Below, piece by piece: positions 10,001 to 28,478 of a DNA stretch of 64,000 nt. Numbering within the stretch: position 1 is the first letter of the stretch; every line of letters begins with the position of its first letter. The position numbers were made by a program, and so were the translations under genes. Below the pieces are notes generated by a model. The model was not told where the DNA came from. It saw only the letters and a program-made list of their open reading frames with translations, and searched no databases. This stretch comes from a virus, in IMG/VR virus record IMGVR_UViG_3300022204_000004, positions 1 through 64,000 of that record; one strand, given 5' to 3'.

Positions 10001-12995
10001 TTTAGCCTATGTAAGAAATGAGTTTGAGCAAATGCCAAAAGAAATCCAAGAAAAGGTTATTCTGTATGATTTGGTCATGAACAAATGGGAGCCTGGTGAA
10101 AAAAACAAATCAATGTTTGCACTTTTCCCTGTTAAAGTTCAAAGACAAATCAATGACAATGCTGAAGCTTTTCAAAAATCTCAAAAAGATGGATTGAAAA
10201 CTATACCTCAACGTGTACTTGATGACGTTAATAGCATTTTAATGGATATTGAAGTAAATAGTGATAATACTAATTTAAAGAAAGTATTCATTAGGGAAAG
10301 TAAGTTGGACCAAATGGGAACTAACAGAGCCATTATACAAAGAATAATGGAAGCCGATCCCGACCTAAGAGAAAGGTTGGTCAACAACAAGTCTAGTTTT
10401 GTCTTTGAGGTAAGAACTCAAAACAAAAAAAACGAAACAGTCAAAAAGGAAATTTATAAATATCATCCACATCTTAGTGGAACTATTTCAAATGACCCTG
10501 ACTCGTTCAAGGAACGTTTTAAAAACCTTAAACGAATAGAAAGACTTGGGTTGCCAGAAATTGACACAAGACTTATAACTATTCAAGATAATCCTACTAC
10601 AGAAAACAAAATACCCCTTTTCAGTGAAGTAGTGGAAGAATCTAAAAAAAAAAGAATAGGTAGAGCCTATGTAGGCAATAGGGTAGGAACAGAGTATTTC
10701 CATTATCGAATGTTTGATCTTCTTTCAAGAGAAGAATATGACAATGCTCAAAAGTATTCTGTTCCTGTTTCTGAATTTAAGAAACAACAACTTTTCGAGA
10801 AATATGAAGCTGTAAAAGAAAGAGCAAATACATTTGCACGAAAACTTACACCTCAATATTTAAAAAGCCTTTCTACAAACGAGCTTTTGGAACTCTATAA
10901 CCAATGGGGAAATGAAGATATAGTTGCCTCAGCTGTTGTTCTTTGGCCTGTAACAGAAGAAGCTACCAAAAGATATTCAGCTGACCAATCAAGATTGACA
11001 GACAGATATGAAGATGGAAAAGACAGTGCTTTTCTTAAATCATGGTTTCAAGCAAATAACATTGATAGCAATCACCCAGCGACACAAGCTGCGGCTCGTA
11101 AAGTCGAAACAGAATTCAAGAAATTTGTCAATGAGAGAAAAATATATCTTAGAGAAATCAATGCTATTTCCAATAAGCTATATAAAGAAAAGCTAGGAAT
11201 AAACAGAACGGGATATAAACTGATAGACAACATACAAGCTACGTTTGTCTTATTGTTTAAAAACCGTAAAAATGTCTATGACAAACTTTATGGTGGAATT
11301 GTAGAGACAAAATTTGGAACTGATAGAGAGGGAAGACCTATTAAACGTATTCGTATGTTATCTGACAAAGAACTACAAGCAAAATTAAAAGCTGGTCAGA
11401 TCTCTGCAACAGAATATGAATTTGCAAGTACATTTAAAAAGATAACAAGGGAACTTCATCCCGCAAAATCTTTTGATTTCAATACACGTGGATTTGTTCC
11501 GGCTATTGCTCCAAATAGACTTGAAGCATTAGGCTCAAGAGGTTTATTGGGAATGATTACAAATGCCAAAGAACGTAGCCAAGCTGTTCACGATGTCTTT
11601 ATGAATTACAATGGAAACAAAGTAACTTTTAAATACATTGAAGACGAATTTAGAAATCAAGGTGGAAACAACTTTTCTAAAATTAAAGAATATGTGGCAC
11701 TGAAAGCCAAAGCAAACAAATTACTTAAAGCTGGTGTCAATGAAGATGGAAGCCCAATAGAGTCTTCAAAAGTTCATACAAACACGTTGTTAGGACAAGG
11801 AATGGTAAACCATTTTGCGGGAGAAGGATGGGTAAGAGCTGAAGACATGCTTTCCATGGACTTGAATAAAGCTTTGGTTGATTTTACACATTCATCGTTA
11901 TTTGTTACAGGAAACAAAAACTTTGAAGGGTTTAATAGACTGCAAATGCAAATCGACGGTCTTTATAATCACAATATTGCAAAAGGATATAATCAACAAG
12001 CAAAATTTGTAAAAGGTGTCTATAAAGAATATTTCTTAAAAGCAAAAAAAGAAACAACGAAAACCGATAGGGTTATCGATGCTCTTGTTAGAGGAAACCT
12101 TTTATATATTATGGGGTGGAAGCTTGTAGCTGTTGGGAAAGGAGCTTATATAGTTGGAAATGTTATTGTAGGTAAGTACAATAATATTAAAAATGAAAGC
12201 CCTATAAATTGGGTAAAAGGAGAGAAACGCTTTTGGGGATTGAACCCTAATGGTCCTTTTGGAACAAGAAAAGCGGCCAATGTGCTTGACAATCTTAACT
12301 ACATGGACATAAACCTTTATGACAATGTAAACATCGAAAGAAATTCAGGTCTTGATTCAATTATGGCTGACATAGCTATGATGCCTATGCAGTATTCTGA
12401 AAGATGGATTCAAGGAGTTCATTTCTTAGGATTGCTGACAGACGAGCAATGGAATAAATTTGATGATAATGGAAATTATAAGCCTGGCGTTGATCCGTTG
12501 ACCAATGAAGAAATTGCCGAGCTTGAAAATGAAGTGAAGAATGCACATGGTAAAGGTTATACACCTACTGACCAAAGATTGATCCAGCAGTACTCTTGGG
12601 GTAGAGCCATGATGCAATTTGCTAGATTTATACCAACAATGTACCATGATAGGTTTGCCAAAGAAGATATTGATATATACGGCAAACAGCATATCGGTAG
12701 CTTAAGAGTTGTTGGCGATTTAGTTTATAAAGTAGCAAGTGGACAGATAGCCCCTAAAGACATTCCAGCTTTTAGGAATAATATGACTCCTGAAATTCGC
12801 AAACGTTTTGATGCGGGTCTGAAAGGACTTGCTATGACTTCTCTAGCAATGTTTGTAGGTCAAGCCTACAATGTAGAAACTGCAAATGAACTTACAGGTG
12901 ATGCCAACTATGTTTTCAACACCGAAAAGCTTGAAAGGAAAATTTTCCCTTCTTTTGCAAGAACCATAATTAATTTATTTGGTGGATTGTTTTAA
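1098..12995 (+). CDS. Giant virion protein: zinc metalloprotease plus crAss-like virion RNA polymerase
   Basis: A 3965-residue protein. In crAss-like phages such giant proteins travel in the capsid, are injected, and transcribe early genes (characterised example: phi14:2 gp66). Visible here: (a) residues 1091-1095 read HEFAH, a zincin HExxH, followed by ILEEAF around E1178/E1179, a plausible third zinc ligand of a gluzincin; (b) around residue 2410 an RIPHNGP segment, then VVPSEY and GSDDDGDALF, where D2449, D2451 and D2453 form the DxDxD magnesium-binding loop of two-barrel RNA polymerases. The N-terminal ~900 residues are Glu/Lys-rich with coiled-coil stretches and a few short hydrophobic segments. 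The characterised crAss-like polymerase is far shorter (about 2,200 residues), so this looks like a fusion of proteins that are separate in relatives. The second loop residue is Asp, where relatives usually have Phe. Start ATG follows the previous stop by 6 bp. Confidence 0.85.
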   Translation: MPSILDLIQKNSQEESRQGQVDNSLNQKNNLQVDKEEPQEPEMSEGQKAYISKGYGSQDPVAKQNQGNTIELNPEEIEAGRNGEGQEPNQELGLTPDEIAQQRIAQIYTPLQYEASKNVLHDSPETWTPEYTQMGFITKTVKNLGKGIGEQVVGGFGDVAQFLNGPIPNMDIAEGNVISRFFQDIGQQMSDSMGEVYMLPEIRDPKFNLNTFMTPDFWSGHAAKLLPNMLEFIFLSHGASALAKGGAKRAAKRYATKNAGKVAKKGRQVSENIVEQVAKGADEILTEIPKTGKGVLGKLLTTRGGLTSFGEQAAQMVGGGFTMNTLVGLQNASELVNTERENGNYTNDEIAEMAALTMAHNMKWMGVDMISWGVTYTKGTGRGTRAINKLKHKIVPKGNASGKRFFGKDQQMIIGALSFNNRVKPVTKMLKRVAKAGGKPLFEGTEEMFQETWEEWSKKRAKEQVSGISDGYDESLGGYMDFFLSKENEATRTIAFALGAIGGSIGNTMNYINKAAEEEYKLANRSELIKHRVADNNRGALEVQQTALREILIDNMLSEDAIDNVEFIKTMEQYETVTPEEAEQMYAINEELQKDYASAEAMNIKGKATFLQAKSRIAINKQNIDTQQGLFKERIAGINEAVQDPRAKEKKIQEETEAHEKLIKALQTEVLFDEQNIENIILGKEAFESNTKTLRDENGNVIAVNLGKEAYDDYYNKTNEEILAEARKNRPKKEESKSFRERLKSFFSKEEEKKGEKPEDNIKVFKGMGDIFNQNPESEEGLGEEYSESVQKQEPLRQFTTSNIVEADKAYKDAFGKSALPENYEELSAEQKKAAIEEANASVDNFNQRLTKEKAKYTKENKPATTDETDDGFEATEDNEEATEEAPIELTQEQVEDIQKRFNVSISENKDGSLNISGDGDINGASNAINKILFPNGQTDESQAEQKTDQKTEPKAKPKEKTAEEKAEEQKLIEEELKNIYNENVLNTNTLEANLIEAIYGSTSDEEITQDEVDAYLSLSKMELTVGVTNLDRARVLNNHLKALFPDQKIQAYAFRNLVLALGGEQALGYALGSAILIDDKVWNQEDIYMHEFAHIYYAANPNSEEVKELISKARRNRKLIQGLYQDYKDDIKYEYTSGLNKGKTFYGRSKNNTDLKLMLDQNLAKELPEERQDIILEEAFVNMLQGPMSKKYSKYFDLKSESLRQARAKTFWGRVKARSERAKLTNKRLQEKLNEGTPNTFRSNEERIMSNFVESMKGKDVTSVGRRSAGRSYSIRQLQGQEKIKEMHNKEVKGLRALGTPLFDAVAQADLAREQKAQGVYEPDEDGPIINIDEDEPINPNMQVDDDALSLVEEAEINPYEKRYEYQETRIAKNISYFIEEENKRENRERLKSAEQGIPKGRRSPYKLKDFKDKLTQMAVEEPYYAEYVRSLVESENEQVKRFVKYMQDNNSSDWVSKLISAHFIFTNSVVVNTKTHMVGEKGDYISNIGLSTNEALNIENISGQIIKDEDIVAEAINRIKQSQDINVELTPEESKAIIYAYSNSYLEPDIMMSKDTLRIDGNNYSIEGGINYAVKKGYLDVQEDGDYLRLSRNTRFIEVLTESSRPYSSLSVIEGPSGNMMSSRMTNFLLNKLVAEVNQDLSQMSRDEFVKKHSLRPKDAQRAIRDAKSVGTKLGEAYLGSNELAARWWDNYHNLGIKPNITMDLGDINLINNIRTDFKNSTARQQMLNETLAFLSNYQEQTYDGSMDIFGDSSRKFGLSVPMYKEQLFNRDNTLTANGEVLLKNAYGIYLATRTKEDSPNYDDFMRQNPLISYDTFKNGFYKSVKTWKEYLTKNAVDFSSVTQFRNLYKTDKEGVVLHELTPMAEQQMNEFLYNRIINSFNIQQMFRPGISLDARVKRNKTLIAPVMALHKNLRPEKIFVPNEYKYRDGRMVQNDSGQFILSSVGDAIRKRTNGSLDLGHGFKLYSGAIERDNPNWQGQSIMMKGYTTELNDENTRPGGSQQAHRPYYEILIAQKEKFIKWWKEQPQNEGRDYIEEDIFLEDPNSLNPVYMGIITPVTAEKAELLTRKNIEGINAFGTLDQLGTKTGRLVYEKILDKMYYSKGQYIGTNGSNFGPQQVMDKENNRAKFSIQAMSSPLVNQKGDKLKRALKAQEYLRQQKMKVLRKKILSKIEGPWDQAFTKLIIDTANLKDSDAFSILQFIDKNINALPYSPATGTWSLDQIRKLIINNGNNLTVDGTYGQTISDLGYTFTNKQGEPRFSARGDSDGNALQDSTVKRRGRLQGYRVGIDGRTIAFEGLLPQSQQKSGVRARELFDVSTLGNAKTAKAAVTAKLNNDKELRNELGFRKQVVDERTALTKKTAEISNYGTPKVAENFENLSDFVEQFKYYDEDGNVAGYYIPGENVLTTRIPHNGPAFMGVMEVVGFTTSGASSIVVPSEYKNIIGSDDDGDALFVYRKSQSEFYSDWNKAFDIMVDQWLSPEMRETLDTELDFEEDTNLSLDIINAELESNQPLKDLIATYQASEQTEEDKKAYKEGRKNVVKNQEFQIPFGVEEFESNFNNSVVSRSTVGIAFQATRAMNQIAPYRPRLHVRSKEGVASPVEITLRGGRQVGRQTSKGLITDRGSGKTSRVQKNTVQGNRVLDSTKNKHADGLYYNPATIMSAVILEAVGFSTEAVGLLMNHPISKKYYSELLDSRNGYIPRQSEQQVIKKLRLENKVLNEEYYKNRASFEIQLFSPKSPEYRSEANEAQIIQLLSWLHKVSNDFSKINNITNGHKDISRNPIVLEQQIDALKKFINNQDETSTIIFEEREPELSISNNPELNSYLDVAQEFIKIQKRINLVFNDNVRSVLDFVKAEITIGDLTNTQIEHFTELLKPFLYSRFLGINNIPSKTIQAMFSKNGSKKLNIVQDINDYFEELEDETYNDTGSDNALKRSVLWNDAILRSGTSISLKPGFINNALTAEDLAYVRNEFEQMPKEIQEKVILYDLVMNKWEPGEKNKSMFALFPVKVQRQINDNAEAFQKSQKDGLKTIPQRVLDDVNSILMDIEVNSDNTNLKKVFIRESKLDQMGTNRAIIQRIMEADPDLRERLVNNKSSFVFEVRTQNKKNETVKKEIYKYHPHLSGTISNDPDSFKERFKNLKRIERLGLPEIDTRLITIQDNPTTENKIPLFSEVVEESKKKRIGRAYVGNRVGTEYFHYRMFDLLSREEYDNAQKYSVPVSEFKKQQLFEKYEAVKERANTFARKLTPQYLKSLSTNELLELYNQWGNEDIVASAVVLWPVTEEATKRYSADQSRLTDRYEDGKDSAFLKSWFQANNIDSNHPATQAAARKVETEFKKFVNERKIYLREINAISNKLYKEKLGINRTGYKLIDNIQATFVLLFKNRKNVYDKLYGGIVETKFGTDREGRPIKRIRMLSDKELQAKLKAGQISATEYEFASTFKKITRELHPAKSFDFNTRGFVPAIAPNRLEALGSRGLLGMITNAKERSQAVHDVFMNYNGNKVTFKYIEDEFRNQGGNNFSKIKEYVALKAKANKLLKAGVNEDGSPIESSKVHTNTLLGQGMVNHFAGEGWVRAEDMLSMDLNKALVDFTHSSLFVTGNKNFEGFNRLQMQIDGLYNHNIAKGYNQQAKFVKGVYKEYFLKAKKETTKTDRVIDALVRGNLLYIMGWKLVAVGKGAYIVGNVIVGKYNNIKNESPINWVKGEKRFWGLNPNGPFGTRKAANVLDNLNYMDINLYDNVNIERNSGLDSIMADIAMMPMQYSERWIQGVHFLGLLTDEQWNKFDDNGNYKPGVDPLTNEEIAELENEVKNAHGKGYTPTDQRLIQQYSWGRAMMQFARFIPTMYHDRFAKEDIDIYGKQHIGSLRVVGDLVYKVASGQIAPKDIPAFRNNMTPEIRKRFDAGLKGLAMTSLAMFVGQAYNVETANELTGDANYVFNTEKLERKIFPSFARTIINLFGGLF

Positions 12996-18921: not shown

Positions 18922-19209
18922 TTAATAAACTGTTTTGTCCTTAAGTTGATCAGCCATTTTCTTTGAAGGTCTAAAGCTTAAATAAAAAGACTTTTTGCTC
19001 ATTTCTGTTTTACCTGTTTTTAAATGCAGAAAAGGTCTGGGCTTTCTAATTCTTAATTTAAAAATCCCTATTTCCCTTAACGACACCTCACAACCAAAAA
19101 CCAATTTGTTTTTTAGTCGCTTTGTCAGGAATGTTATAATTTTTCTTGATTGCCTTTCGGAGAACCCGAACTCTTCTGATAAGTCTTTGGTGAAATCTGT
19201 AAAATTCAT
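18922..19209 (-). CDS. HU/IHF-like DNA-bending protein
   Basis: 95 residues from the ATG at 19209 (MNFTDFTKDL); a longer frame from 19251 would add 14 residues and would start upstream of the promoter box at 19226-19233. The pattern is that of the family: two N-terminal helices (FGFSERQSRKIITFLTKRL), then the strand CEVSLREIGIFKLR, an arm with RKPRP, and the C-terminal FRPSKKMADQLK. Likely role: DNA bending in replication, packaging or transcription. Confidence 0.8.
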   Translation of the reverse strand: MNFTDFTKDLSEEFGFSERQSRKIITFLTKRLKNKLVFGCEVSLREIGIFKLRIRKPRPFLHLKTGKTEMSKKSFYLSFRPSKKMADQLKDKTVY

Positions 19210-19225
19210 ATAATAAGCTTTTTTA

Positions 19226-19233
19226 CAAATGTA
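19226..19233 (-). promoter_or_regulatory. Bacteroidota-type -7 box for the IHF-like gene
   Basis: CAAATGTA on the plus strand reads TACATTTG on the minus strand, a full match to TAnnTTTG, 17 bp before the ATG at 19209. No clear TTG at the expected -33 distance. Confidence 0.45.
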
Positions 19234-19255
19234 ACAAAATAATAGTACCATAGTG

Positions 19256-19403: not shown

Positions 19404-19530
19404 CAATTACCAATTCATTAGGCAAAGCGAACAAAGCAATCCTATAACATCGTTTTTCAAACTCTTCCTTGGATTCATCTGGATAGCTAATAATAGAACC
19501 TCCTTGATAGCCTAAACTTGCTTTAAACAT
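19375..19530 (-). CDS. Hypothetical protein (51 aa)
   Basis: ATG at 19530 overlaps the stop of the methyltransferase gene by 8 bp, which suggests translational coupling. The TAG is at 19375-19377, inside the terminator hairpin of the opposing small RNA. Sequence MFKASLGYQGGSII...; unrecognised. Confidence 0.5.
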   Translation of the reverse strand: MFKASLGYQGGSIISYPDESKEEFEKRCYRIALFALPNELVIEKKELNLTK

Positions 19531-20407
19531 TTTTATCTATCACAATGACTTTAGCACCTACAAGGGTTCCTGAAGATTTAAACGAACCTCTTTCGATGTC
19601 CATGATATGTGCACCAACAGATTGAAGCCAATATCTAAAATCAGATTCTTTTTGATTATTGGAAATTTCCCAATGTTCTGAAGCTACGGAAACCAATCTA
19701 CCATTATTTTCAAGACGATCGTACATATGTTGTATGTGGTCAATGTCCTGATTTTTTGTAAATGGTGGATTAGCTATAATCCTATCAAACTTACTACCAC
19801 TCCATTCAAGAAAGTCAAACTCTCGTTTTATTACAACGTCTTTATGTTGATATTTCTCTTTAAGGATTTCTGTGTTGGTTCCCATTAATTCTATAGCAAA
19901 AATCTCACGATTGCCATGTCTTCTATGGATTGCATCAATAATGGCTCCCTGACCGGCACTTGGTTCAAGAACTGTTGACCAAGGCAGAATATCGGCAAGT
20001 TCTACAAGCCAATCAGCAATTTCATCAGGAGTTTCAAAGAACTGAAATTCTTTCTTTAGATTGATTTTCTCGCCATTTTGAACCCTACCGAGTAACTCAC
20101 TAGGGTCTGTTGGAAATACGTGTGCTTTGGCACTTCTATTCCATTTACCGCCTATACCAACAAGTGCTTTGTTTACTTGTTGATATAAGGCTCTGTCTAA
20201 TTGTTGTGGTAGGTAAACATTGTTACCCTCGATGCGACATGCATCAAATACTTCCTGCGTTGTTTGCATTTTTTTATTTATTAAAAAAGTTAAATAGCTA
20301 GGGAAAGAGTCGCCTTTATTATATCCCAATACCTTGATTTGGTATTCTCGTTCTGCGATAAGCTCAAGTAATGACTTGCCTATACAAATTTCTTCATATT
20401 CAGTCAT
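19523..20407 (-). CDS. SAM-dependent DNA methyltransferase, NPPF type (probably adenine-N6)
   Basis: 294 residues. Motif I is VLEPSAGQGA (residues 146-155), an acidic loop follows at AIELMG, and the catalytic motif is ANPPF (212-216), typical of amino-methyltransferases acting on adenine in DNA. No restriction endonuclease is adjacent, so it is an orphan enzyme that could protect phage DNA or mark it. The N-terminal ~120 residues (GNNVYLPQQLDR, GGKWNR) form an extra domain seen in mobile-element methylases. Start overlaps the upstream 42-codon gene by 1 bp. Confidence 0.85.
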   Translation of the reverse strand: MTEYEEICIGKSLLELIAEREYQIKVLGYNKGDSFPSYLTFLINKKMQTTQEVFDACRIEGNNVYLPQQLDRALYQQVNKALVGIGGKWNRSAKAHVFPTDPSELLGRVQNGEKINLKKEFQFFETPDEIADWLVELADILPWSTVLEPSAGQGAIIDAIHRRHGNREIFAIELMGTNTEILKEKYQHKDVVIKREFDFLEWSGSKFDRIIANPPFTKNQDIDHIQHMYDRLENNGRLVSVASEHWEISNNQKESDFRYWLQSVGAHIMDIERGSFKSSGTLVGAKVIVIDKNV

Positions 20408-20537: not shown

Positions 20538-22022
20538 TTAGAATGGTACATTATTGTCCTTATCAGGAACGTTAAGTGATATTTGATTGCTTTGAGGTGG
20601 TGGTGGTGGAACCTTTGCACTTGGTGCTGTTACAGGAATGATGTCATAAGAGCCAGTATAACTGTAAGCACTTATGGTCATTTGAATAGCATCCAAAAAT
20701 ATGTGAATGGTTGTTGTACCCAAATCTCTACCTTTTGCAAATATGAATTCAGTATGGAAAAGTTCAGAATAAGGAATTGTCGCTCCGGGCAAGTCCTTGT
20801 CATAATAAGCTTGTCTATAAAGGAATACTGCAATATCTGCATCTTCCTCAATACTTCCCGATTCTTTTAGATCCGATAGCATTGGTCTTTTATTATGTCT
20901 GCTTTCCACACTTCTGTTAAGCTGAGATAATGCTATGACGGGAATATAATTTTCCTTTGCCATAGACTTACATTCCCTTGAAATAAGAGTTATCAGTATT
21001 CTGGGATCCATTTTACCTTCTTCCGATTTACATCTTTGAATGTAATCTATGAATACGGCTTTGACCCCTTTATCCCTGACATACTCTTCGGTCTTTCTTG
21101 AAATTTCCTCAATGGTCGTTACTTTGTCCAATATGAAGAAATACAAGCTGTCATCAATGAACTTGCTACAAGCTTCTACTCGTTGCAGTTCTTCGTCTGT
21201 AAGCATTCCTGCTTTTATTTTCTTATACGGTATCTTTGTCTCTAATGATATTATTTTAGATTTTAATTGATTCTTAGGCATTTCCAAAGAAAAGAACAGT
21301 ACGGGATTTCCCAACTTGGAAGTTTCCCAAGCGGATATAAGAGCAAAAGTTGTCTTACCCATACCCGGTCTTCCCGCAAGAATAATCAGTTCGCCAGGTG
21401 AATAACCACTCATGAAATCATCAATGACCTCAACAGTGGTCGAAACCCCAACGGATTGTCCTACTCTTTGTTTTGCTACTTTTTGCCTAATTTCAGCGTT
21501 ATAATCGTTTTCCTCTACGGTTTCGTTTCTCTTTAGGTTAATGGTCATTCTCTCGAACAGACTATTGTATTCAGCAATAATATTATCGCTTACCTGAAGA
21601 ACATCTCTACCGTTCCAATTTCCATAAAGCACATCATGAGCATTCCAATTCCAAAAGTCCATTATTACGTATTGCTTTAAAATAAAAATATCATGTTCCA
21701 AAGTGTTTATGGAATATGTACCAGCAAAAAGAACTTTAGCCAATTCAATTTCAAACTCTTTGTAATTATTCAATCTGTATTTCTCAGGTCTAAACTGACC
21801 AACAGCAACAACCGTAGGAACGGCATTTTGTTTATAGCACTCAAAGATCGCAGAACAAATGTCCTTATGGGCTTCTAATCTAAAATCCTTAACCCTAACG
21901 TTATGTGCTTCAACTATACTCCTTACCTCAGTATCTCGGTCAACATTCATTATTGTACCAAGTATCTGTGCCTCGACTTGATATCGATGGTCGATATCAT
22001 AGTTGTTATATTCATTTATCAT
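20538..22022 (-). CDS. dnaB: Replicative DNA helicase, DnaB-like
   Basis: 494 residues, the size of DnaB. The N-terminal domain begins YQVEAQILGTIM. Walker A is GRPGMGKT (217-224), Walker B ends in VFIDYIQ (D326), and the C-terminal LSQLNRSVE and SGSIEEDADIAVFLYR segments are the classical RecA-type helicase motifs. The last residues are Pro-rich. It unwinds DNA at the phage fork. It lies directly downstream of the PRTRC genes in the same transcript direction. Confidence 0.95.
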   Translation of the reverse strand: MINEYNNYDIDHRYQVEAQILGTIMNVDRDTEVRSIVEAHNVRVKDFRLEAHKDICSAIFECYKQNAVPTVVAVGQFRPEKYRLNNYKEFEIELAKVLFAGTYSINTLEHDIFILKQYVIMDFWNWNAHDVLYGNWNGRDVLQVSDNIIAEYNSLFERMTINLKRNETVEENDYNAEIRQKVAKQRVGQSVGVSTTVEVIDDFMSGYSPGELIILAGRPGMGKTTFALISAWETSKLGNPVLFFSLEMPKNQLKSKIISLETKIPYKKIKAGMLTDEELQRVEACSKFIDDSLYFFILDKVTTIEEISRKTEEYVRDKGVKAVFIDYIQRCKSEEGKMDPRILITLISRECKSMAKENYIPVIALSQLNRSVESRHNKRPMLSDLKESGSIEEDADIAVFLYRQAYYDKDLPGATIPYSELFHTEFIFAKGRDLGTTTIHIFLDAIQMTISAYSYTGSYDIIPVTAPSAKVPPPPPQSNQISLNVPDKDNNVPF

Positions 22023-22030
22023 CTCATAGT

Positions 22031-22279
22031 TTATTTGTATTTATGATATTGGCATCTGTAATTACCTTTATCGGTTATTTTATAATTCCAATTCCAACAT
22101 GAACGGATGAGTTTCTCTCTATAAAACATAGAAACATCACCAATACTATTGTGGCGACTATATTGACAGACACGTTTCCAAAACTGTTTAAGAGTTTCTT
22201 CTTTGTATTTGTAATACCTTATTCTCATATTACCAAAATTTGCATGATAATCTAAGTCCTTGTCATCATTCTGGTTCAT
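22031..22279 (-). CDS. Hypothetical protein (82 aa)
   Basis: Rich in Tyr, Lys, Arg and Cys, with a basic C-terminus (CQYHKYK). The ATG overlaps the TGA of the ThiF gene (ATGA), so translation is coupled. Function not recognised; position between the E1-like enzyme and the helicase is its main clue. Confidence 0.6.
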   Translation of the reverse strand: MNQNDDKDLDYHANFGNMRIRYYKYKEETLKQFWKRVCQYSRHNSIGDVSMFYREKLIRSCWNWNYKITDKGNYRCQYHKYK

Positions 22280-23013
22280 ATCTTATTTGTTTTAACGTTA
22301 ATAGGATTTAAGCTAAAATATATCTGACTTTGCAGTATATTGAAATCAAGCAACAGTGATGACAGCATTTCTAAAGCATACACGCCTGTCAGCTTGTTTA
22401 TCATAAAGCTTTGCTCTCTAAGTGAAGCACGAAGAGAACAGCTTGGTTCGTTGACCTTATCTTCCATATTTGGGTGTAGGTCAATAATACTTGGTAATAT
22501 CATTTTTGTTTCTTTACCATAGGCACTTAAAATTATTTGTCCATAATCTCTTGAATTACCACAATCAATCCAATAATGTGTTCTTTGTTGACCATGATAA
22601 TTCCCTTTTTTGCCATTTTTCTTAATGGCTTTATCAATTATCTTTCTTGTCCTGACATTATCAACACAAGAAATAACAATGTTATATTTATCTCTTTCCA
22701 AATCTTCACCTGAAAAGGTTTCATTTCTAAATTCCACATCTGTTCCATAGGCTCTATTGACCCTATTGACCAATGTTTCGGCTTTTGATTTACCAATGTC
22801 AGAGGGAAAGAATTTCTGCCTACCAACATTATGTTCTTCTACAATATCATCATCATAGACAATGATTTTCAGTTCCTTTCTGTCAAGTATCTTCAATGTA
22901 TTTGACAAAGACACCAATTCGGGAAGAACAAAGCTTCCGGTTCCACCCACACCTACAAGAACAACCGTTATTCTATGTACGGGATTTACGATATAATCAC
23001 TTGTGCACAACAT
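22276..23013 (-). CDS. PRTRC system ThiF/E1-like protein
   Basis: 245 residues from the ATG at 23013. An upstream frame (to 23169) would overlap protein B by 173 bp and adds no recognisable sequence, so I reject it. Family signs: nucleotide-binding GVGGTG (21-26), YDDDIVEEHNVGRQ (53-66) that binds and adenylates, SDIGKSKA, ISCVDN, WIDCGN. A candidate thioester Cys is C192 in EPSCSL. E1/ThiF enzymes adenylate the C-terminal Gly of ubiquitin-like proteins. In PRTRC cassettes, found mostly on plasmids and mobile elements, this gene accompanies proteins B and C as here. Confidence 0.85.
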   Translation of the reverse strand: MLCTSDYIVNPVHRITVVLVGVGGTGSFVLPELVSLSNTLKILDRKELKIIVYDDDIVEEHNVGRQKFFPSDIGKSKAETLVNRVNRAYGTDVEFRNETFSGEDLERDKYNIVISCVDNVRTRKIIDKAIKKNGKKGNYHGQQRTHYWIDCGNSRDYGQIILSAYGKETKMILPSIIDLHPNMEDKVNEPSCSLRASLREQSFMINKLTGVYALEMLSSLLLDFNILQSQIYFSLNPINVKTNKI

Positions 23014-23698
23014 TTCTAAGATATTTATTAAGTGGCAACAGTTCTTTTGATGGAAACCGTGTTTGGTTTTCGTCTTTGATAAGACTTTCCAATAACGGTA
23101 GAGTTGGAGATTTCGTTCTTCCAGCAGCGTAATCTGTAGTGAATGTTGAATTGAAGAAACCATCTTCAACCATTCTCATTATTTTTTCATAGCTGTTGTT
23201 GGAAGTGAAATTCTTAATATCCATAGTTCCCCAACATAAGTTTTCGTCTTTCTTAATGTTAGGAAAAGGAGCTTGGAACAAAGGCGTATATTCATCGATA
23301 TTTGTTGTCTTTACAGCATAGATATAAAGCTCATTGTTGCTCAATCTAAATATCAAATGAGGATAGAACAATCTTCCCTTTACCTTTTTGTACTTAATTT
23401 TTCTGAGCATACCTTTACAAAACCAAGTAATTCTTGGAGATAAGGCATTTGGATCAAAGTGAAGTACATTTCTTGGTATCATTCCCGTAAAGACAATCTT
23501 TCGGTCTTCACTTTTGACCAATTTTGTCTTTACTGTATTGAATAGTTGGTCTAATGCTTCATAAGAAACAGGTTTGTAGCTTTGAGCCACATCGTTTACT
23601 ATTTCAGCATATTCAGTATAAAAACCATTTCTACTCTTATAGAACACCATATTGAAGAACGGTTTTAAAGGTTCTTCGTCAATTTGTGAAACAATCAT
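22997..23698 (-). CDS. PRTRC system protein B (E2-like, Prok-E2_D family)
   Basis: 233 residues. Family pattern: ITWFCKGMLRKIKY, then GRLFYPHLIFRL, the strand LYIYAVK, PLFQAPFPNI and LCWGTMD. C155 sits where E2-like members carry the candidate catalytic Cys, followed by the helix EDGFFNSTFTTDY. In this scheme it would accept the ubiquitin-like protein from the ThiF protein. It overlaps the ThiF start by 17 bp and the preceding gene by 20 bp. Family call from memory of the PRTRC/Prok-E2_D pattern; conjugation activity is inference. Confidence 0.75.
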   Translation of the reverse strand: MIVSQIDEEPLKPFFNMVFYKSRNGFYTEYAEIVNDVAQSYKPVSYEALDQLFNTVKTKLVKSEDRKIVFTGMIPRNVLHFDPNALSPRITWFCKGMLRKIKYKKVKGRLFYPHLIFRLSNNELYIYAVKTTNIDEYTPLFQAPFPNIKKDENLCWGTMDIKNFTSNNSYEKIMRMVEDGFFNSTFTTDYAAGRTKSPTLPLLESLIKDENQTRFPSKELLPLNKYLRNVVHK

Positions 23699-24680
23699 AT
23701 TGCTTAAAGTATAATTTAGTTAATTTGTTAATTCTCTCTTTTCTGCTTTCAATAGCTTGTTTGCTTATTTCAACACCAGGTCTATATAACAATACAGAAT
23801 AAGCTCTCTCGGTTATCATGTTTTGCCCCATTTGGTCCATATTGTAATAAATGTATGAATCGTATGCAGAACCCTCAAGGTCTGTATCATATTCATATCT
23901 AAAATGAAACAAGTCCTGAAGAGCTAAATAAGTTTCTTGTCTATCTTCATCAGAAACATTCAATGGAACCATATCATTAAACTTGCAACCACTGTTAAAA
24001 CTGTCCAAGGCATCATAAATAAACTCTTTCCATTTAGGATGTTTCTTGACCATTTTTTTAACGTATTTATCATCAAATTCAAAATAATTCCCTTTAGGAA
24101 TTCTCTTGAGATAAGGTCTAATGATTTTTGTATAAATCTTATAGGCAAAGTAGTCATTGGAATGGTCTTCAAATGCATAATCACTTTTGGGATCTTGTAC
24201 TTCCCAATAGATTTCATAAGCCATTTCCATACAACTTTCATGTATATAGTTGTCAAATAGACTGTGACCACACCAATCAAGATTAGCCAATATCTTTAAA
24301 AGAAAATCTGTAAATTCTTCATCTTTCCTTTCTTTAATAAAAGCTTTGATTGGTATAGAACCACTATCATATTCATTACCGGCATCCAATCCGATAACAA
24401 ATACATTGGCCACATCTATTTCATAGGTATTGTCTTTCTTAACGATAAAACGTGAGAGCAATAAAATACAGTCATTCAAAGAATCATTTTCAAAAAGCAT
24501 AAGGTCATCAATGCTATCATCAATGTCTTTGGCAAATCGATAAAGATTTTTGATAAGACGTATTTTTTCTTCTCGGTCATGGTCTTCAAGCCAGACAACA
24601 CCTTCTTCAGCTCCTAAAGTAATACCCTTATAGAAAGGAATTACGTTAAAACTATTTCGTTTGAAGGTATTTTGTAACAT
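23679..24680 (-). CDS. Probable PRTRC system protein F
   Basis: 333 residues, acidic, alpha-helical, with no catalytic motif that I recognise. The length and the place between protein C and protein B fit PRTRC protein F, which in other cassettes is about this size; the sequence match itself I cannot verify. The start overlaps a 53-codon upstream gene by 40 bp, so a later start is possible, though the next in-frame Met is ~60 codons on. Confidence 0.5.
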   Translation of the reverse strand: MLQNTFKRNSFNVIPFYKGITLGAEEGVVWLEDHDREEKIRLIKNLYRFAKDIDDSIDDLMLFENDSLNDCILLLSRFIVKKDNTYEIDVANVFVIGLDAGNEYDSGSIPIKAFIKERKDEEFTDFLLKILANLDWCGHSLFDNYIHESCMEMAYEIYWEVQDPKSDYAFEDHSNDYFAYKIYTKIIRPYLKRIPKGNYFEFDDKYVKKMVKKHPKWKEFIYDALDSFNSGCKFNDMVPLNVSDEDRQETYLALQDLFHFRYEYDTDLEGSAYDSYIYYNMDQMGQNMITERAYSVLLYRPGVEISKQAIESRKERINKLTKLYFKQYDCFTN

Positions 24681-24802
24681 CCGTCTTTTCTTGTTTTTTG
24701 AAGCGTTCTTAATAGTTCTTCAGCATCTAAATTGCTTGCTACACAATTATCGTTTTTACTGTCTATATTCTCAATATATTCAGCTATGCTTATCTTTTTC
24801 AT
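24641..24802 (-). CDS. Tiny hypothetical protein (53 aa)
   Basis: ATG at 24802, TAA at 24641-24643. MKKISIAEYIENID...; charged, helical, two Cys. Its start overlaps the end of the 119-residue gene (24780) by 23 bp, and its end overlaps the next gene by 40 bp. Real or not, no other frame explains the 100 bp between its neighbours. Confidence 0.4.
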   Translation of the reverse strand: MKKISIAEYIENIDSKNDNCVASNLDAEELLRTLQKTRKDGCYKIPSNEIVLT

Positions 24803-25139
24803 CTATGATTATTTTATATTCATGTATGCCTATGATTTTACCAAACGAATTATTATTAATGAGTTTATCCGTAAAGTGGTCATAAGCTTCCATATTTATA
24901 AATTCATGCCATCGAGTATCGTAAACACCATCTTTCTTAATGGTCATCTTTACTTGCACTCTATTGTTGTCTTTTACTATAATCCTCTTAAATGGAGTAT
25001 AGTTTGTATTCATCCATGAATGACCTTTTGAATGAAGAAAATCCCAAATGGCTTCATCATTCCAATCACTGTCTATTTCGTACACGAATACGTCATCAAA
25101 GTGACTATCGGTAACAAGTATGGTTATCAAATATCCCAT
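24780..25139 (-). CDS. Hypothetical protein (119 aa)
   Basis: Beta-rich start (MGYLITILVTDSHFDDVFVYEID), acidic, soluble. Starts on the last base of the upstream gene's stop. Unrecognised; inside the PRTRC operon. Confidence 0.6.
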   Translation of the reverse strand: MGYLITILVTDSHFDDVFVYEIDSDWNDEAIWDFLHSKGHSWMNTNYTPFKRIIVKDNNRVQVKMTIKKDGVYDTRWHEFINMEAYDHFTDKLINNNSFGKIIGIHEYKIIIDEKDKHS

Positions 25140-25363
25140 CAGTTTTCGTTTAAAATGATTATTTGTTCTAATTCTATTAAAATATTTATCAGTTTTTCTT
25201 TAATCTGATAAAGCCTGATAACATCTTTATCGTTAATTCCCTGTTTCATTGGATCTATGTTGTCATACATCACTTTGCACTGGGCTACCATGTCTTCGCA
25301 GTCAAAGGCATTTCCTAAGCCTCCATATAATTGCGACTCTTTTTCGTTAGCTAAATTTGGCAT
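25139..25363 (-). CDS. Hypothetical protein (74 aa)
   Basis: Two helices, the second a regular Leu/Ile heptad pattern (IRLYQIKEKLINILIELEQII) that looks coiled-coil. It is separated from the upstream DUF932 gene by a terminator hairpin. Unrecognised. Confidence 0.6.
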   Translation of the reverse strand: MPNLANEKESQLYGGLGNAFDCEDMVAQCKVMYDNIDPMKQGINDKDVIRLYQIKEKLINILIELEQIIILNEN

Positions 25364-25386
25364 TTCTTTAATGATGCAATAGGGAT

Positions 25387-25419
25387 AAAAAGATACACCC
25401 CCCTAAAGGGAGGTATATC
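25387..25419 (-). terminator. Terminator after the DUF932 gene
   Basis: On the minus strand GATATACCTCCC pairs with GGGGGGTGTATC around a TTTA loop, followed by TTTTT. A 12-bp stem with one or two wobble positions. Confidence 0.8.
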
Positions 25420-25436
25420 CTATCCTTATCCTTATA

Positions 25437-26513
25437 TTAAATTGAAGCGATTTTTCCAGCTAATTCGTCAAGCTCTTGTTTCCGTCTTTCACCAATGTCA
25501 TTGCTGACAGCTGTAATAGCTTGTGAAAGCTTCCATCTGGTAGGAGCACCTACTACACCTTGACTTGGATCACTTTGAAGTAACTTGGTCTGTACCAAGC
25601 TTGTTTCTTCTTTTGTGAATCCCATTCGTGGAAGTTTAATGATTTCCTTGTCAATGTCAATCATTTCATGACTTGCTTTATACACGTTCTGAACTGTTTC
25701 CATAATTCTGTTTGGAGACAGTACACTTACCATGATATCGTCTATAGCACTTGCCATAGCACGAGTATCTAATGTATAGGTTCGTTCACTGAAATTGATA
25801 TCGTCAGGAAGACGTTTGCCCAAATGTATCTGTTTCAGTAAAGTATCTGTAACCATACCGTTAAGACAAGCAACGTTCATTTGAAAGGCTCTTACACCTA
25901 AAGCACCATCACCATAATCACTATTGCCAATACGAGCACCAAAGACAGAATAAACGTTACCGTTATTCGGTGTCTCAATGGTATATACTCTTGGTATGAT
26001 AGTATGGATATAGCTTTTGGTTTCACTATAATAAGCATCATAAATGACTGCTCCCATATTATGACAGCCTTTGATAAAAGACTCATAAATCTCATTAGAG
26101 TTTAATCGTCTGTACTTGTCACTTAAAACAGCTCTTGTTTCATCTCCAACTGTTCTAACTAACAGTCTGTTACGGTCAATGTTTGCTGAATGTTCCGTAA
26201 GAACATTGTTTAGCAACTGTCTTCCCCAATCGCTTTCGTTTAAATAACCAACATACTTTCTTGGTATATTGAACTTATCACCTAATTGCATTAGGGCATG
26301 CGGGTGTATCTGAAATTGAGAATCATCAAAGTTCATATACATTTTTCCGTTCGCATTGAACGTAACATCCATATTGGAACCCAAGTTCACAATATAATCT
26401 GTCAATAGAGAATTGTCTCTTTCTATTCTTTCCAAAACAGATTGATTTTTCCCTGTTCGCTGACTCAATAAGTGGTCAACTTTGTTCTGAAGAATTTCTA
26501 CTTCTGCATTCAT
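25437..26513 (-). CDS. DUF932 family protein
   Basis: 358 residues. Family pattern visible: a central LLVRTVGDETRAVLSDKYRRLNS, a glycine-rich GARIGNSDYGDGAL, and MNVACLNGM. DUF932 proteins are common on phages, plasmids and conjugative elements; their biochemistry is not settled. Preceded by a TTAATCCTTTAAA-type leader (about 26525-26537) and followed by a strong terminator, so it may be a highly expressed unit within the PRTRC operon. Confidence 0.85.
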   Translation of the reverse strand: MNAEVEILQNKVDHLLSQRTGKNQSVLERIERDNSLLTDYIVNLGSNMDVTFNANGKMYMNFDDSQFQIHPHALMQLGDKFNIPRKYVGYLNESDWGRQLLNNVLTEHSANIDRNRLLVRTVGDETRAVLSDKYRRLNSNEIYESFIKGCHNMGAVIYDAYYSETKSYIHTIIPRVYTIETPNNGNVYSVFGARIGNSDYGDGALGVRAFQMNVACLNGMVTDTLLKQIHLGKRLPDDINFSERTYTLDTRAMASAIDDIMVSVLSPNRIMETVQNVYKASHEMIDIDKEIIKLPRMGFTKEETSLVQTKLLQSDPSQGVVGAPTRWKLSQAITAVSNDIGERRKQELDELAGKIASI

Positions 26514-26515
26514 TG

Positions 26516-26731
26516 TTATTTATTTAAAGGATTAATATTAAATTGATTTTCTACAAATATCAATGCACCGTTTTCTACGGCTTCATCAATTTTGCAGTCA
26601 CATGCATTATCTTCTACATTGAGTTGCCAATCTACCTGATGACTTTCGTCATAAGCAAATACTGCATGTGTTTTCCATACTTTCTTTGCTTCTTCGGGAG
26701 TTATTTCGCTCCATGTACTATGAAATGCCAT
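26516..26731 (-). CDS. Hypothetical acidic protein (71 aa)
   Basis: Acidic, with W and two Cys (NACDCKID). It overlaps the upstream 46-codon gene by 14 bp. No family recognised. Confidence 0.55.
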   Translation of the reverse strand: MAFHSTWSEITPEEAKKVWKTHAVFAYDESHQVDWQLNVEDNACDCKIDEAVENGALIFVENQFNINPLNK

Positions 26732-26858
26732 GTTTTTGTCTTTTAAATTTCTTCATTGCTGCTTTTACTGTCGTACTCCAGCCTTTAGGCTTGTAAGAGC
26801 CATCGGTAATAAGAGTTTCAAGAAACCCTGTACGTTTGCATTTTCTGAATACTTTCAT
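26718..26858 (-). CDS. Tiny basic protein (46 aa)
   Basis: ATG at 26858, TAG at 26718-26720. MKVFRKCKRTGF... with a strongly basic C-terminal half (AAMKKFKRQKH). First gene after a terminator. Possibly nucleic-acid-binding; unrecognised. Confidence 0.5.
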   Translation of the reverse strand: MKVFRKCKRTGFLETLITDGSYKPKGWSTTVKAAMKKFKRQKHGIS

Positions 26859-26878
26859 TGTTTTTGCGAGTTATAAAA

Positions 26879-26912
26879 TTAAAAAAGCCATCTGAATAAA
26901 CAAATGGCTTTG
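26879..26912 (-). terminator. Terminator after the PRTRC C/89-aa pair
   Basis: AAAGCCAT (26884-26891) and ATGGCTTT (26904-26911) form an 8-bp stem; the minus strand continues with T6. It separates the E-C part of the cassette from the DUF932-F-B-ThiF part. Confidence 0.8.
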
Positions 26913-26921
26913 TGTTAAAAC

Positions 26922-27191
26922 TTAGTGAACGACTTTAGTGACATGCAATAAGTTCATCAAATTATCCAATCCACTTCTTGATAAATAAGGATAATTTTTA
27001 GGGTCTTTATGTGGCATTTTAACCATTGCTTCATAAGGAAAAGCAAAGGTTGATTCTGCCATCATTCCTGTGGAAACCCTTATGGATATGCCATTTTCAA
27101 ATGTGAAATCAGCATACTCGTTGAGCTCTGTATAATTCTCTCCAAATTCTGTTGTATATCTTTTGAATGTAAGTCTTTGGAAAAAATTCAT
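26922..27191 (-). CDS. Hypothetical protein (89 aa) behind PRTRC C
   Basis: Start placed at 27191 (MNFFQRLTF), 1 bp after the stop of protein C; a longer frame starting at 27248 would lie inside protein C. Beta-rich (NEYADFTFENGISIRVSTG) with a helical end. Its tight coupling to protein C suggests a functional link, but I do not recognise it. Confidence 0.6.
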   Translation of the reverse strand: MNFFQRLTFKRYTTEFGENYTELNEYADFTFENGISIRVSTGMMAESTFAFPYEAMVKMPHKDPKNYPYLSRSGLDNLMNLLHVTKVVH

Positions 27192-27192
27192 A

Positions 27193-27402
27193 TTAGCCTT
27201 TTGTTCCAAGGTTCTTACTAAACTCATATACAGCTTTATCATTCTCAATCTTTGGACCTGTTACAGATGCATTCAACAGTTCCGGATGTTGATTGGAATA
27301 GATTTCCATAATTGCTTCAGGAGATAATGACGGATCTATATCCAACAAAACTTCCTTGTTGTACTTGAACTCTCTAACGAGTTGTTTAGATGTTACTGCC
27401 AT
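27193..27402 (-). CDS. PRTRC system protein C (prokaryotic ubiquitin-like)
   Basis: 69 residues with the family pattern: REFKYNKEVLLDIDPSLSPE, then MEIYSNQHPELLNASVTGP, and the end FSKNLGTKG. This family (Prok_Ub / PRTRC C) is predicted to adopt a ubiquitin-like fold. The reading frame stops directly after the Gly of GTKG, so the nascent protein would already expose a C-terminal Gly for adenylation by the ThiF protein. It begins 2 bp after the stop of protein E. Confidence 0.85.
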   Translation of the reverse strand: MAVTSKQLVREFKYNKEVLLDIDPSLSPEAIMEIYSNQHPELLNASVTGPKIENDKAVYEFSKNLGTKG

Positions 27403-27404
27403 AT

Positions 27405-28478
27405 TTAAGATTGTTTAACTCCGTTTTGTAATATATGATTTTCTAAGAACTTAAGACTTTCCTCATTCTGTTCATCTGCAATAGAATCAGGATTGAAACC
27501 GTACTCAACAGCAAGTTTCTTTAGGTCAGCAACACGTTCTGCCATAGTTTTAACCTTTGGTGGTTCTGGCATCGCTACAGGTGTAGGCACTGCAACCGGT
27601 GTTGGAGGAACAAATGCGGGAGCAAGTTCCTTCTCTTCACTGAAACTAATGTCATTCCCTAAGTCTTTGAACTCACTGAATGACATTGTTGGTTTTGGTG
27701 CTTGTGGCTCTATAAACTTCGGTTCTACGGGCTGTAACGAACCATTGCTCTTGTTTATATTTGTTTTCAAATCTTGAAAGCCACGTTCAAATTCTGCCAT
27801 TGTTGCTTTCTCTACATAAGCTATCGAAAGTCCAATACCACCTCTTACATATTGTTTCTCTTCTTCTTTTTTAATAAAACCAAGAGCTATAAGCCTTGCT
27901 TCTCTTTCCAAAAAGAGTTTAGATGGTTCCATTGCTTGTTCCTTTTGTTCAACTTCCATAGCTTCAACATCTTCTTTAGGAACAATAACTTCAGTAGCTG
28001 TAAGGGTTGCCGATGTTGTAGACATTCCTTGCACTGGAGCACCACGCTCAGGAACAGTTGCAAACATATCCAATGTTTCAGGTTCTTTAGGTTTTACAGG
28101 TTCTTTAGGTATATCAACTTTAATTTCAGTCTGTTTGGACGTAGTTGTTTTAGCCTCTGTTTTACCTTTAGCCTTTGACTTTGGCTTGGCCGCTGCTTCA
28201 CTAGAAGCTTTTTCTGCTCTTTTCAACGATTCCTCAACAAAGGCTATACGCTCAATAGGAGACAAGCTTCTACTGACCAGCTGTGTAATGGTCGTTAAAA
28301 ATTCAGCATCAATCTCTTCAGGTTTCCCTGAAATACGAATAGGAGCTATGTTCAAGCTTTTGTCGTCTTTATCTTTTACGATAAAGAAAACAATCACTTC
28401 CATAAGTCCATCGTCTTTGGTCTCAATGACCAACTGAACTTTTGCCTTTTTGGCAATAGGATTTAATTCGTTTAACAT
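27405..28478 (-). CDS. PRTRC system protein E with long low-complexity extension
   Basis: 357 residues. The first ~95 residues match protein E by pattern (MLNELNPIAKKAKVQLVIETKDDGLMEVIVFF, then APIRISGKPEEIDAEFLTTI). After that come Lys/Ala, Thr/Ser and Pro/Val-rich linkers (SEAAAKPKSKAKGKTEAK; VPTPVAVP) and a short helical C-terminal segment. The protein is longer than protein E as I remember it (roughly 150-200 residues). Start ATG sits behind TTAACCCTTAAAAAGCAGAA, the best example of the phage leader motif, which suggests strong translation of the cassette. Confidence 0.75.
   Translation of the reverse strand: MLNELNPIAKKAKVQLVIETKDDGLMEVIVFFIVKDKDDKSLNIAPIRISGKPEEIDAEFLTTITQLVSRSLSPIERIAFVEESLKRAEKASSEAAAKPKSKAKGKTEAKTTTSKQTEIKVDIPKEPVKPKEPETLDMFATVPERGAPVQGMSTTSATLTATEVIVPKEDVEAMEVEQKEQAMEPSKLFLEREARLIALGFIKKEEEKQYVRGGIGLSIAYVEKATMAEFERGFQDLKTNINKSNGSLQPVEPKFIEPQAPKPTMSFSEFKDLGNDISFSEEKELAPAFVPPTPVAVPTPVAMPEPPKVKTMAERVADLKKLAVEYGFNPDSIADEQNEESLKFLENHILQNGVKQS

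Follow-up and report, generated by a model that had tools for sequence, protein, structure and literature searches.

Can a PRTRC gene set that is carried by a phage and lacks the JAB protease of these sets, protein A, work as a ubiquitin-like conjugation pathway, and what would such a pathway modify? The question arises from a 64-kb stretch of DNA, here called the window, taken from the 76.9-kb IMG/VR virus record IMGVR_UViG_3300022204_000004, which may itself be a fragment. The minus strand of the window encodes, from position 28478 down to 22276, PRTRC protein E, protein C, a small protein that we call gene X, a number of small or uncharacterized genes, a protein in the PRTRC F position, protein B, and ThiF. 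To our knowledge, PRTRC sets have had no settled function so far. We propose that this set is an A-less ubiquitin-like pathway on a crAss-like phage, with the replisome as its likeliest target, and we give this explanation as a whole a probability of roughly 0.55. The protein families are known; the new part is the occurrence of a PRTRC set lacking A on a crAss-like phage. A search of open-access titles and abstracts, with subscription papers and preprints outside it, returned no report of phage-borne PRTRC, and on this limited search the two patterns described below, a rule for the C-terminal tail of protein C and a gene order with clamp and helicase, also appear new.

E1-, E2-, and ubiquitin-like proteins of the set

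We scored the encoded proteins against NCBIfam and Pfam hidden Markov models (HMMs) and compared each score with the cut-off of the model. Protein C (69 aa, 27193–27402, minus strand) lies above both of its cut-offs, with 77.3 bits against TIGR03738 (cut-off 45.95, E = 7e-22) and 79.4 bits against Prok_Ub (PF14454; cut-off 25, E = 1.7e-22). The same holds for ThiF (245 aa, 22276–23013, minus strand), which reaches 182.6 bits against TIGR03736 (cut-off 144.75, 8e-54) and 70 bits against Pfam ThiF (cut-off 28), and for protein E (357 aa, 27405–28478, minus strand), whose E domain in residues 1–105 is followed by a long low-complexity region and scores 44.9 bits against TIGR03741 (cut-off 37.95, E = 8.7e-12) and 36.3 bits against Pfam PRTRC_E (PF19556; cut-off 26). 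Protein B (233 aa, 22997–23698, minus strand) falls below the cut-off of TIGR03737 (70.4 bits against 131.45, 1.3e-19) but well above that of Prok-E2_D (PF14460; 79.5 bits, cut-off 25, 3.3e-22), and its gene is in the correct PRTRC position. The HMM matches that a preliminary description, made by reading the sequence, had anticipated for B and C are thus present, in the case of B to the Pfam family.

The 333-aa candidate for protein F (23679–24680, minus strand) occupies the F position. It does not match the F model TIGR03742, which the tested F-position proteins of Bacteroidota also miss; it resembles these Bacteroidota proteins weakly (hhalign probability 57.6%) and the Proteobacterial F not at all (0.1%), and a PDB fold search returned nothing informative. 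Its identity as F is unproven. Of the five-protein set originally named, E, C, and ThiF are therefore secured by NCBIfam and B by Pfam only, whereas the F candidate lacks an HMM match. As the same description had stated, no JAB protease, ParB, or protein D is visible: the 76.9-kb record, which may be incomplete, contains no match to PRTRC_A/JAB (TIGR03735, PF14464), for which the PRTRC_A control also matched nowhere, nor to ParB (TIGR03734) or protein D (TIGR03739). Protein A is also missing from many accepted sets, in Alteromonas, Pseudomonas, and Bacteroidota, and ParB and D are likewise missing from several.

Conservation of the residues expected in an E1–E2 relay was scored over 183 viral, cellular, and plasmid loci. 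ThiF carries the nucleotide-binding motif GVGGTGS (GxGGTGS in the family) as well as Arg65, Lys77, and Asp118, with the Arg and the Lys each kept in 180 loci. Its candidate catalytic cysteine, Cys192 (in PSCS; codon 22440–22438), is a cysteine in 181 of 182 sequences, and a PRTRC ThiF profile finds as its nearest solved chains eukaryotic E1s (NEDD8 E1, UBA6, UBA1, and UBA5) and Cap2. The corresponding loop of protein B, FPNI-x6-LCWG, contains the candidate catalytic Cys155 (codon 23236–23234) and Asn147; the cysteine is universal (181/181), and the Asn of this (H)PN-like motif is present in 180 of 181. When the B profile was compared with three E2 sequences, the best local match fell exactly across the active site, TPLFQAPFPNIKKDENLCWG versus TKIYHPNINANGNICLDI. 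The cysteine loop is in register with the active site of yeast Ubc4 (a query identical to PDB 1qcq), with an hhalign score of 31.1 versus 23.9 for the best of 60 shuffled decoys. An AlphaFold model of B (pLDDT 88) places strands first, then the cysteine loop, then helices. B is likely an E2-type enzyme, the β-grasp fold predicted for C rests on its membership in the Prok_Ub family, and we consider E1–E2–ubiquitin-like chemistry for the PRTRC set quite probable. The earlier proposal of a phage-borne E1, E2, and ubiquitin-like set is thus supported by family matches, universal catalytic residues, and the profile match of the B loop to yeast Ubc4.

Several results weigh against this assignment. 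Foldseek gave no significant PDB match for the B model, with no E2 among the top 50, and a BFVD fold search returned nothing informative. The predicted fold of B, on which the E2 proposal had been staked, consequently gives a divided answer, with no E2 from Foldseek on one side and a secondary-structure order and active-site profile that fit E2 on the other. The downstream His, the proposed stand-in for the E2 His, is a Thr in the window and a His in 152 of the 183 loci. Iyer, Burroughs, and Aravind (2006), in their account of operon type 6d, called this catalytic His of the E2-like protein absolutely conserved (PMC1779556). The window shares with type 6d a ubiquitin-like protein with a C-terminal Gly and E1-like and E2-like proteins; it differs in the Thr and in having no JAB gene, which in type 6d is always adjacent or fused (PMC1779556). 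Finally, hhalign comparisons of C with ubiquitin, ThiS, and MoaD did not rise above decoys, although with single-sequence targets these comparisons are uninformative.

In the pathway that we propose, C, as a small ubiquitin-like modifier, would be synthesized already mature, its C-terminal Gly free, and would need no protease. ThiF would adenylate this Gly and then hold C as a thioester on Cys192, and B would take C onto Cys155 and pass it to target proteins. We infer every one of these chemical steps from gene content and residues that are directly observed.

The C terminus of protein C and the presence of protein A

The C protein of the window ends exactly at ..NLGTKG, with no tail, and the Gly is its encoded terminus. 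In A-bearing plasmid and phage sets, C runs 3 to >100 residues past the conserved ..G-x-K-G end, whereas in A-less sets it stops exactly there. Among the 183 loci, 58 have both A and a tail, four have A with an untailed C (L077, L153, L178, and L191 in our numbering of loci), 121, the window included, have neither, and none has a tail without A. The terminal Gly of C is present in 120 of the 121 A-less loci; the end of C was placed by eye in L013, L196, and L197, three divergent plasmid sets without A. The B and ThiF genes mostly abut or overlap in A-less loci and are separated by about 570 nt or more in A-bearing ones. Because A fills this interval of at least about 570 nt when present, its absence from that place is real.

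A role for the JAB protein in both processing the ubiquitin-like protein and detaching it from targets has been predicted (PMC1779556), and the tail rule supports the processing half of that prediction. The probable function of protein A is to trim C, and the phage probably encodes C already trimmed, which would explain how A-less sets, this one included, can work and is the likely answer to the missing JAB protease. In A-bearing sets, protein A would cut the tail off a C precursor and probably also strip conjugates; where A is missing, modification would probably be one-way. All four exceptions, with A and an untailed C, lie in the direction allowed by this second role in conjugate removal. 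The tail rule makes PRTRC testable, in that it gives protein A a defined role, the trimming of C, and natural A-less phage sets should function with only C, ThiF, and B.

Although the association of tail and A is strong, it lacks statistical independence. A plain Fisher test (5.6e-40 on the first 157 loci) was set aside as evidence because the loci are related. The tree shows only about 5–6 switches of A and about 7 of the tail, and an independent-pairs sign test cannot reach 0.05. These figures speak against a functional link and would suit lineage history instead, with one old split between A-bearing tailed and A-less tailless sets. That the two traits switch jointly at L063, L194/L195, and L009 relative to A-less neighbors, and that tails vary from 3 to >100 aa yet never occur without A, makes history by itself an unlikely source of the pattern.

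Replication genes beside the set and candidate targets

We ran our own DnaB and DnaN profiles over the 183 loci, many of which are related and for which no background set was scored. DnaB lies near the PRTRC genes in 27 loci, on the same strand in 25 and within 3.5 kb downstream of ThiF in 19. The clamp gene dnaN is near in 25 loci, on the same strand in all of them and within 3.5 kb upstream of E in 19, and the full order dnaN, PRTRC, dnaB occurs in L019, L030, and L148. Of the 134 genes that directly adjoin the set at 36 selected loci, DnaB (8) and DNA polymerase III beta (7) are the most frequent by Pfam, and dnaN or ssb is also seen beside plasmid PRTRC sets. In the window, a replicative DnaB-type helicase (20538–22022, minus strand; DnaB_C 5e-68; phrog_19) lies past ThiF; it does not follow directly, as had been stated, but comes after an 82-aa open reading frame (ORF; 22031–22279, minus strand) that has no matches in other loci.

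This neighborhood is a lead for replisome targets, short of proof. By analogy with the modification of PCNA in eukaryotes, the likeliest targets would be proteins of the element's own replisome, the DnaB helicase and the sliding clamp. The target is speculative, and we put replisome proteins forward as the main one only tentatively. At the sensitivity of our profiles, about 73% of loci have no DnaB or dnaN nearby, and phage replication genes cluster and run co-directionally regardless; both points argue against reading targets from gene order. The initial suggestion had been conjugation to replication or host targets: the recurrent DnaB and clamp gene order favors the former, and the latter is unsupported. 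A broader version, which we also regard as doubtful, would make PRTRC in general a replisome-modifying ubiquitin-like pathway in which C placed on the clamp or DnaB switches the replication mode or excludes host factors, with many phages running it one-way, with pre-trimmed C and no deconjugase. The gene order makes PRTRC testable by naming the helicase and the clamp as candidate targets. If replisome conjugation proved true, bacteria and phages would possess their own equivalent of PCNA modification, and phages themselves, beyond bacterial defense systems, would use ubiquitin-like conjugation.

Alternatively, C could be conjugated to host defense proteins or to structural proteins of rival phages or plasmids, giving counter-defense or exclusion with a Bil-like action. 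Iyer et al. proposed protection against invasive replicons (PMC1779556). PRTRC sets sit on mobile elements, where such systems are common, and ThiF weakly matches the PADLOC models for E1–E2 (1e-07) and BilD (1e-04). However, C, B, E, and F have no PADLOC match, and the stable neighbors are replication genes rather than defense genes; we judge this alternative improbable. Bil and CBASS Cap2/Cap3 share with the window the logic of E1, E2, and, for Bil, a ubiquitin-like protein, and ThiF is weakly similar to their E1 domains. They are nonetheless separate families with a JAB protein and an anti-phage role in bacteria, whereas the set in the window is phage-borne, and PADLOC found in it no ubiquitin-like, E2, or deubiquitinase proteins specific to Bil or CBASS, only the weak E1-type matches of ThiF.

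Less probable still is sulfur transfer, in which ThiF would make a C thiocarboxylate for thiolation of nucleotides, cofactors, or tRNA and B would not conjugate. ThiF is the namesake of its family and matches thiamine ThiF models, and the fold search that gave B no E2 match would suit this alternative. The set nevertheless contains no rhodanese or sulfurtransferase, C terminates in KG, where GG would be usual, and B is always present, with its universal Cys and Asn in a loop that aligns with the E2 active site. That the set is a plasmid-derived partition or maintenance module, inert or vestigial here after losing ParB, D, and A, is very improbable: many plasmid sets do have ParB and none was found in this record, but all catalytic residues are intact, in a sister phage (L002) the genes for F, B, ThiF, and C are retained in the same order beside DnaB, with 61% ThiF identity, and A-less sets are also widespread in Bacteroidota cells, as seen in a genome-wide scan of cellular genomes with C.

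Locus layout, related sets, and source phage

The genes from E to ThiF had been described as one leftward operon. They are co-directional, but two terminator-like hairpins, both of which fold far better than shuffled sequence, divide them and rule out a single operon. The first (26884–26911, minus strand; 11 bp stem with a T run, −14.1 kcal/mol, z −4.3) lies 3′ of E, C, and gene X, and the second (about 25391–25420, minus strand; 13 bp stem, z −3.8) follows a two-gene unit that encodes a 71-aa ORF without a family match (26516–26731, minus strand) and a 358-aa protein of phrog_1362, whose function is not known (25437–26513, minus strand; 1.8e-64). The region is thus probably three transcription units, E-C-X, the two-gene unit, and a unit through F, B, and ThiF. 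The start codon of ThiF is the ATG at 23013, which fits its homologues and gives a 17-nt overlap with the 3′ end of the B gene; a start at the TTG at 23169 was rejected, as the added 5′ stretch crosses the B gene in another frame. Gene X (89 aa, 26922–27191, minus strand) begins 1 nt past the stop codon of C. With its own profile, it matches only in the window, in L001, whose sequence is identical to that of the window, and in the sister phages L002 and L003, and it is possibly a lineage-specific partner of C. DUF932 proteins adjoin two other sampled PRTRC loci; Pfam DUF932 does not match the phrog_1362 protein of the window.

PRTRC had been considered known mainly from plasmids and integrative elements, but phage carriage is common in IMG/VR and not exceptional. 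We scanned IMG/VR with a ThiF alignment and kept 80 of 189 relatives; B accompanies ThiF in nearly all of those 80, and C and E do so in most. Among 50 long PRTRC-bearing viral records, at least 28 encode a large terminase (phrog_6681 in 9, phrog_2 in 21, both in 2), and phage-borne PRTRC is a recurrent cargo of metagenomic viruses. ThiF matches in a named phage collection were confined to three records, including Burkholderia phage BgVeeders33. PRTRC ThiF is rare in sampled bacterial genomes: with the seed genomes excluded, it occurs in 4 of 397 from the phylum to which a Paraburkholderia belongs and in 9 of 295 from that of Phocaeicola vulgatus.

In a tree of ThiF and B, the window and L002 form a deep-branching pair, and the other phrog_6681 phages fall on separate branches (L032, L071, L075, L018/L026, and L057), a scatter that suggests several acquisitions or an old divergence. 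The longest branch belongs to Bacillus phage KLEB27-3 (L014, 217 kb), whose divergent set of C, B, A, and ThiF lies at 162803–173354. Plasmid pDEIPR02 of Deinococcus proteolyticus (L095) carries two B-ThiF pairs in tandem, beside an HU gene. A 6.6-kb record from human faeces in Mexico (L011, MT839883), labelled Bacteriophage sp., contains E, C, F, and B with a ThiF that is broken. A histidine kinase and an integrase-like gene lie alongside, neighbors that make a Bacteroidota mobile element a likelier source than a phage.

The established plasmid and integrative sets (NCBIfam TIGR03734–TIGR03742), such as that of Paraburkholderia sabiae pPs24235_2, have the same E, C, (F), B, ThiF order and strand. 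The window differs from them in being on a phage, in the absence of matches to A, ParB, and D, in an F not recognizable by HMM, in an untailed C, in two intervening gene groups with hairpins between C and F, and in its nearby DnaB. Closer in content (E, C, an F-position protein, B, and ThiF) are the A-less sets found in Bacteroidota genomes and on plasmids of Alteromonas and Pseudomonas. Their C also ends at Gly, but they are on cellular replicons, the plasmid ones often with ParB, whereas the window and L002 form a deep separate branch. BgVeeders33 (OK665841) is likewise a phage; its E, C, F, B, and ThiF carry the annotations hypothetical protein or dinucleotide-utilizing enzyme. Unlike the window, it has protein A (TIGR03735, 224 bits) and a 62-aa C tail, and it is not crAss-like by the matches seen.

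The source of the window is a divergent crAss-like phage (Crassvirales), as judged by its crAss-type terminase and portal. The large terminase (39310–41625, plus strand) matches phrog_6681 (5.6e-63) and, by tblastn, cr1_1 and others; the portal protein (41618–43915, plus strand) matches phrog_6547 (1.8e-42) and, by tblastn, cr131_1 and others. The best tblastn matches of both among named phages are crAss-like. A 560-aa ORF considered as a possible capsid protein gave no match. One ORF of 3965 aa (1098–12995, plus strand) has the size of the giant virion proteins of crAss-like phages. On the minus strand, directly past DnaB, a 294-aa protein (19523–20407) has similarity to a methyltransferase domain (MTS, 5.9e-06), and an HU/IHF-like DNA-binding protein (PF00216, 1e-12) is encoded at 18922–19251.

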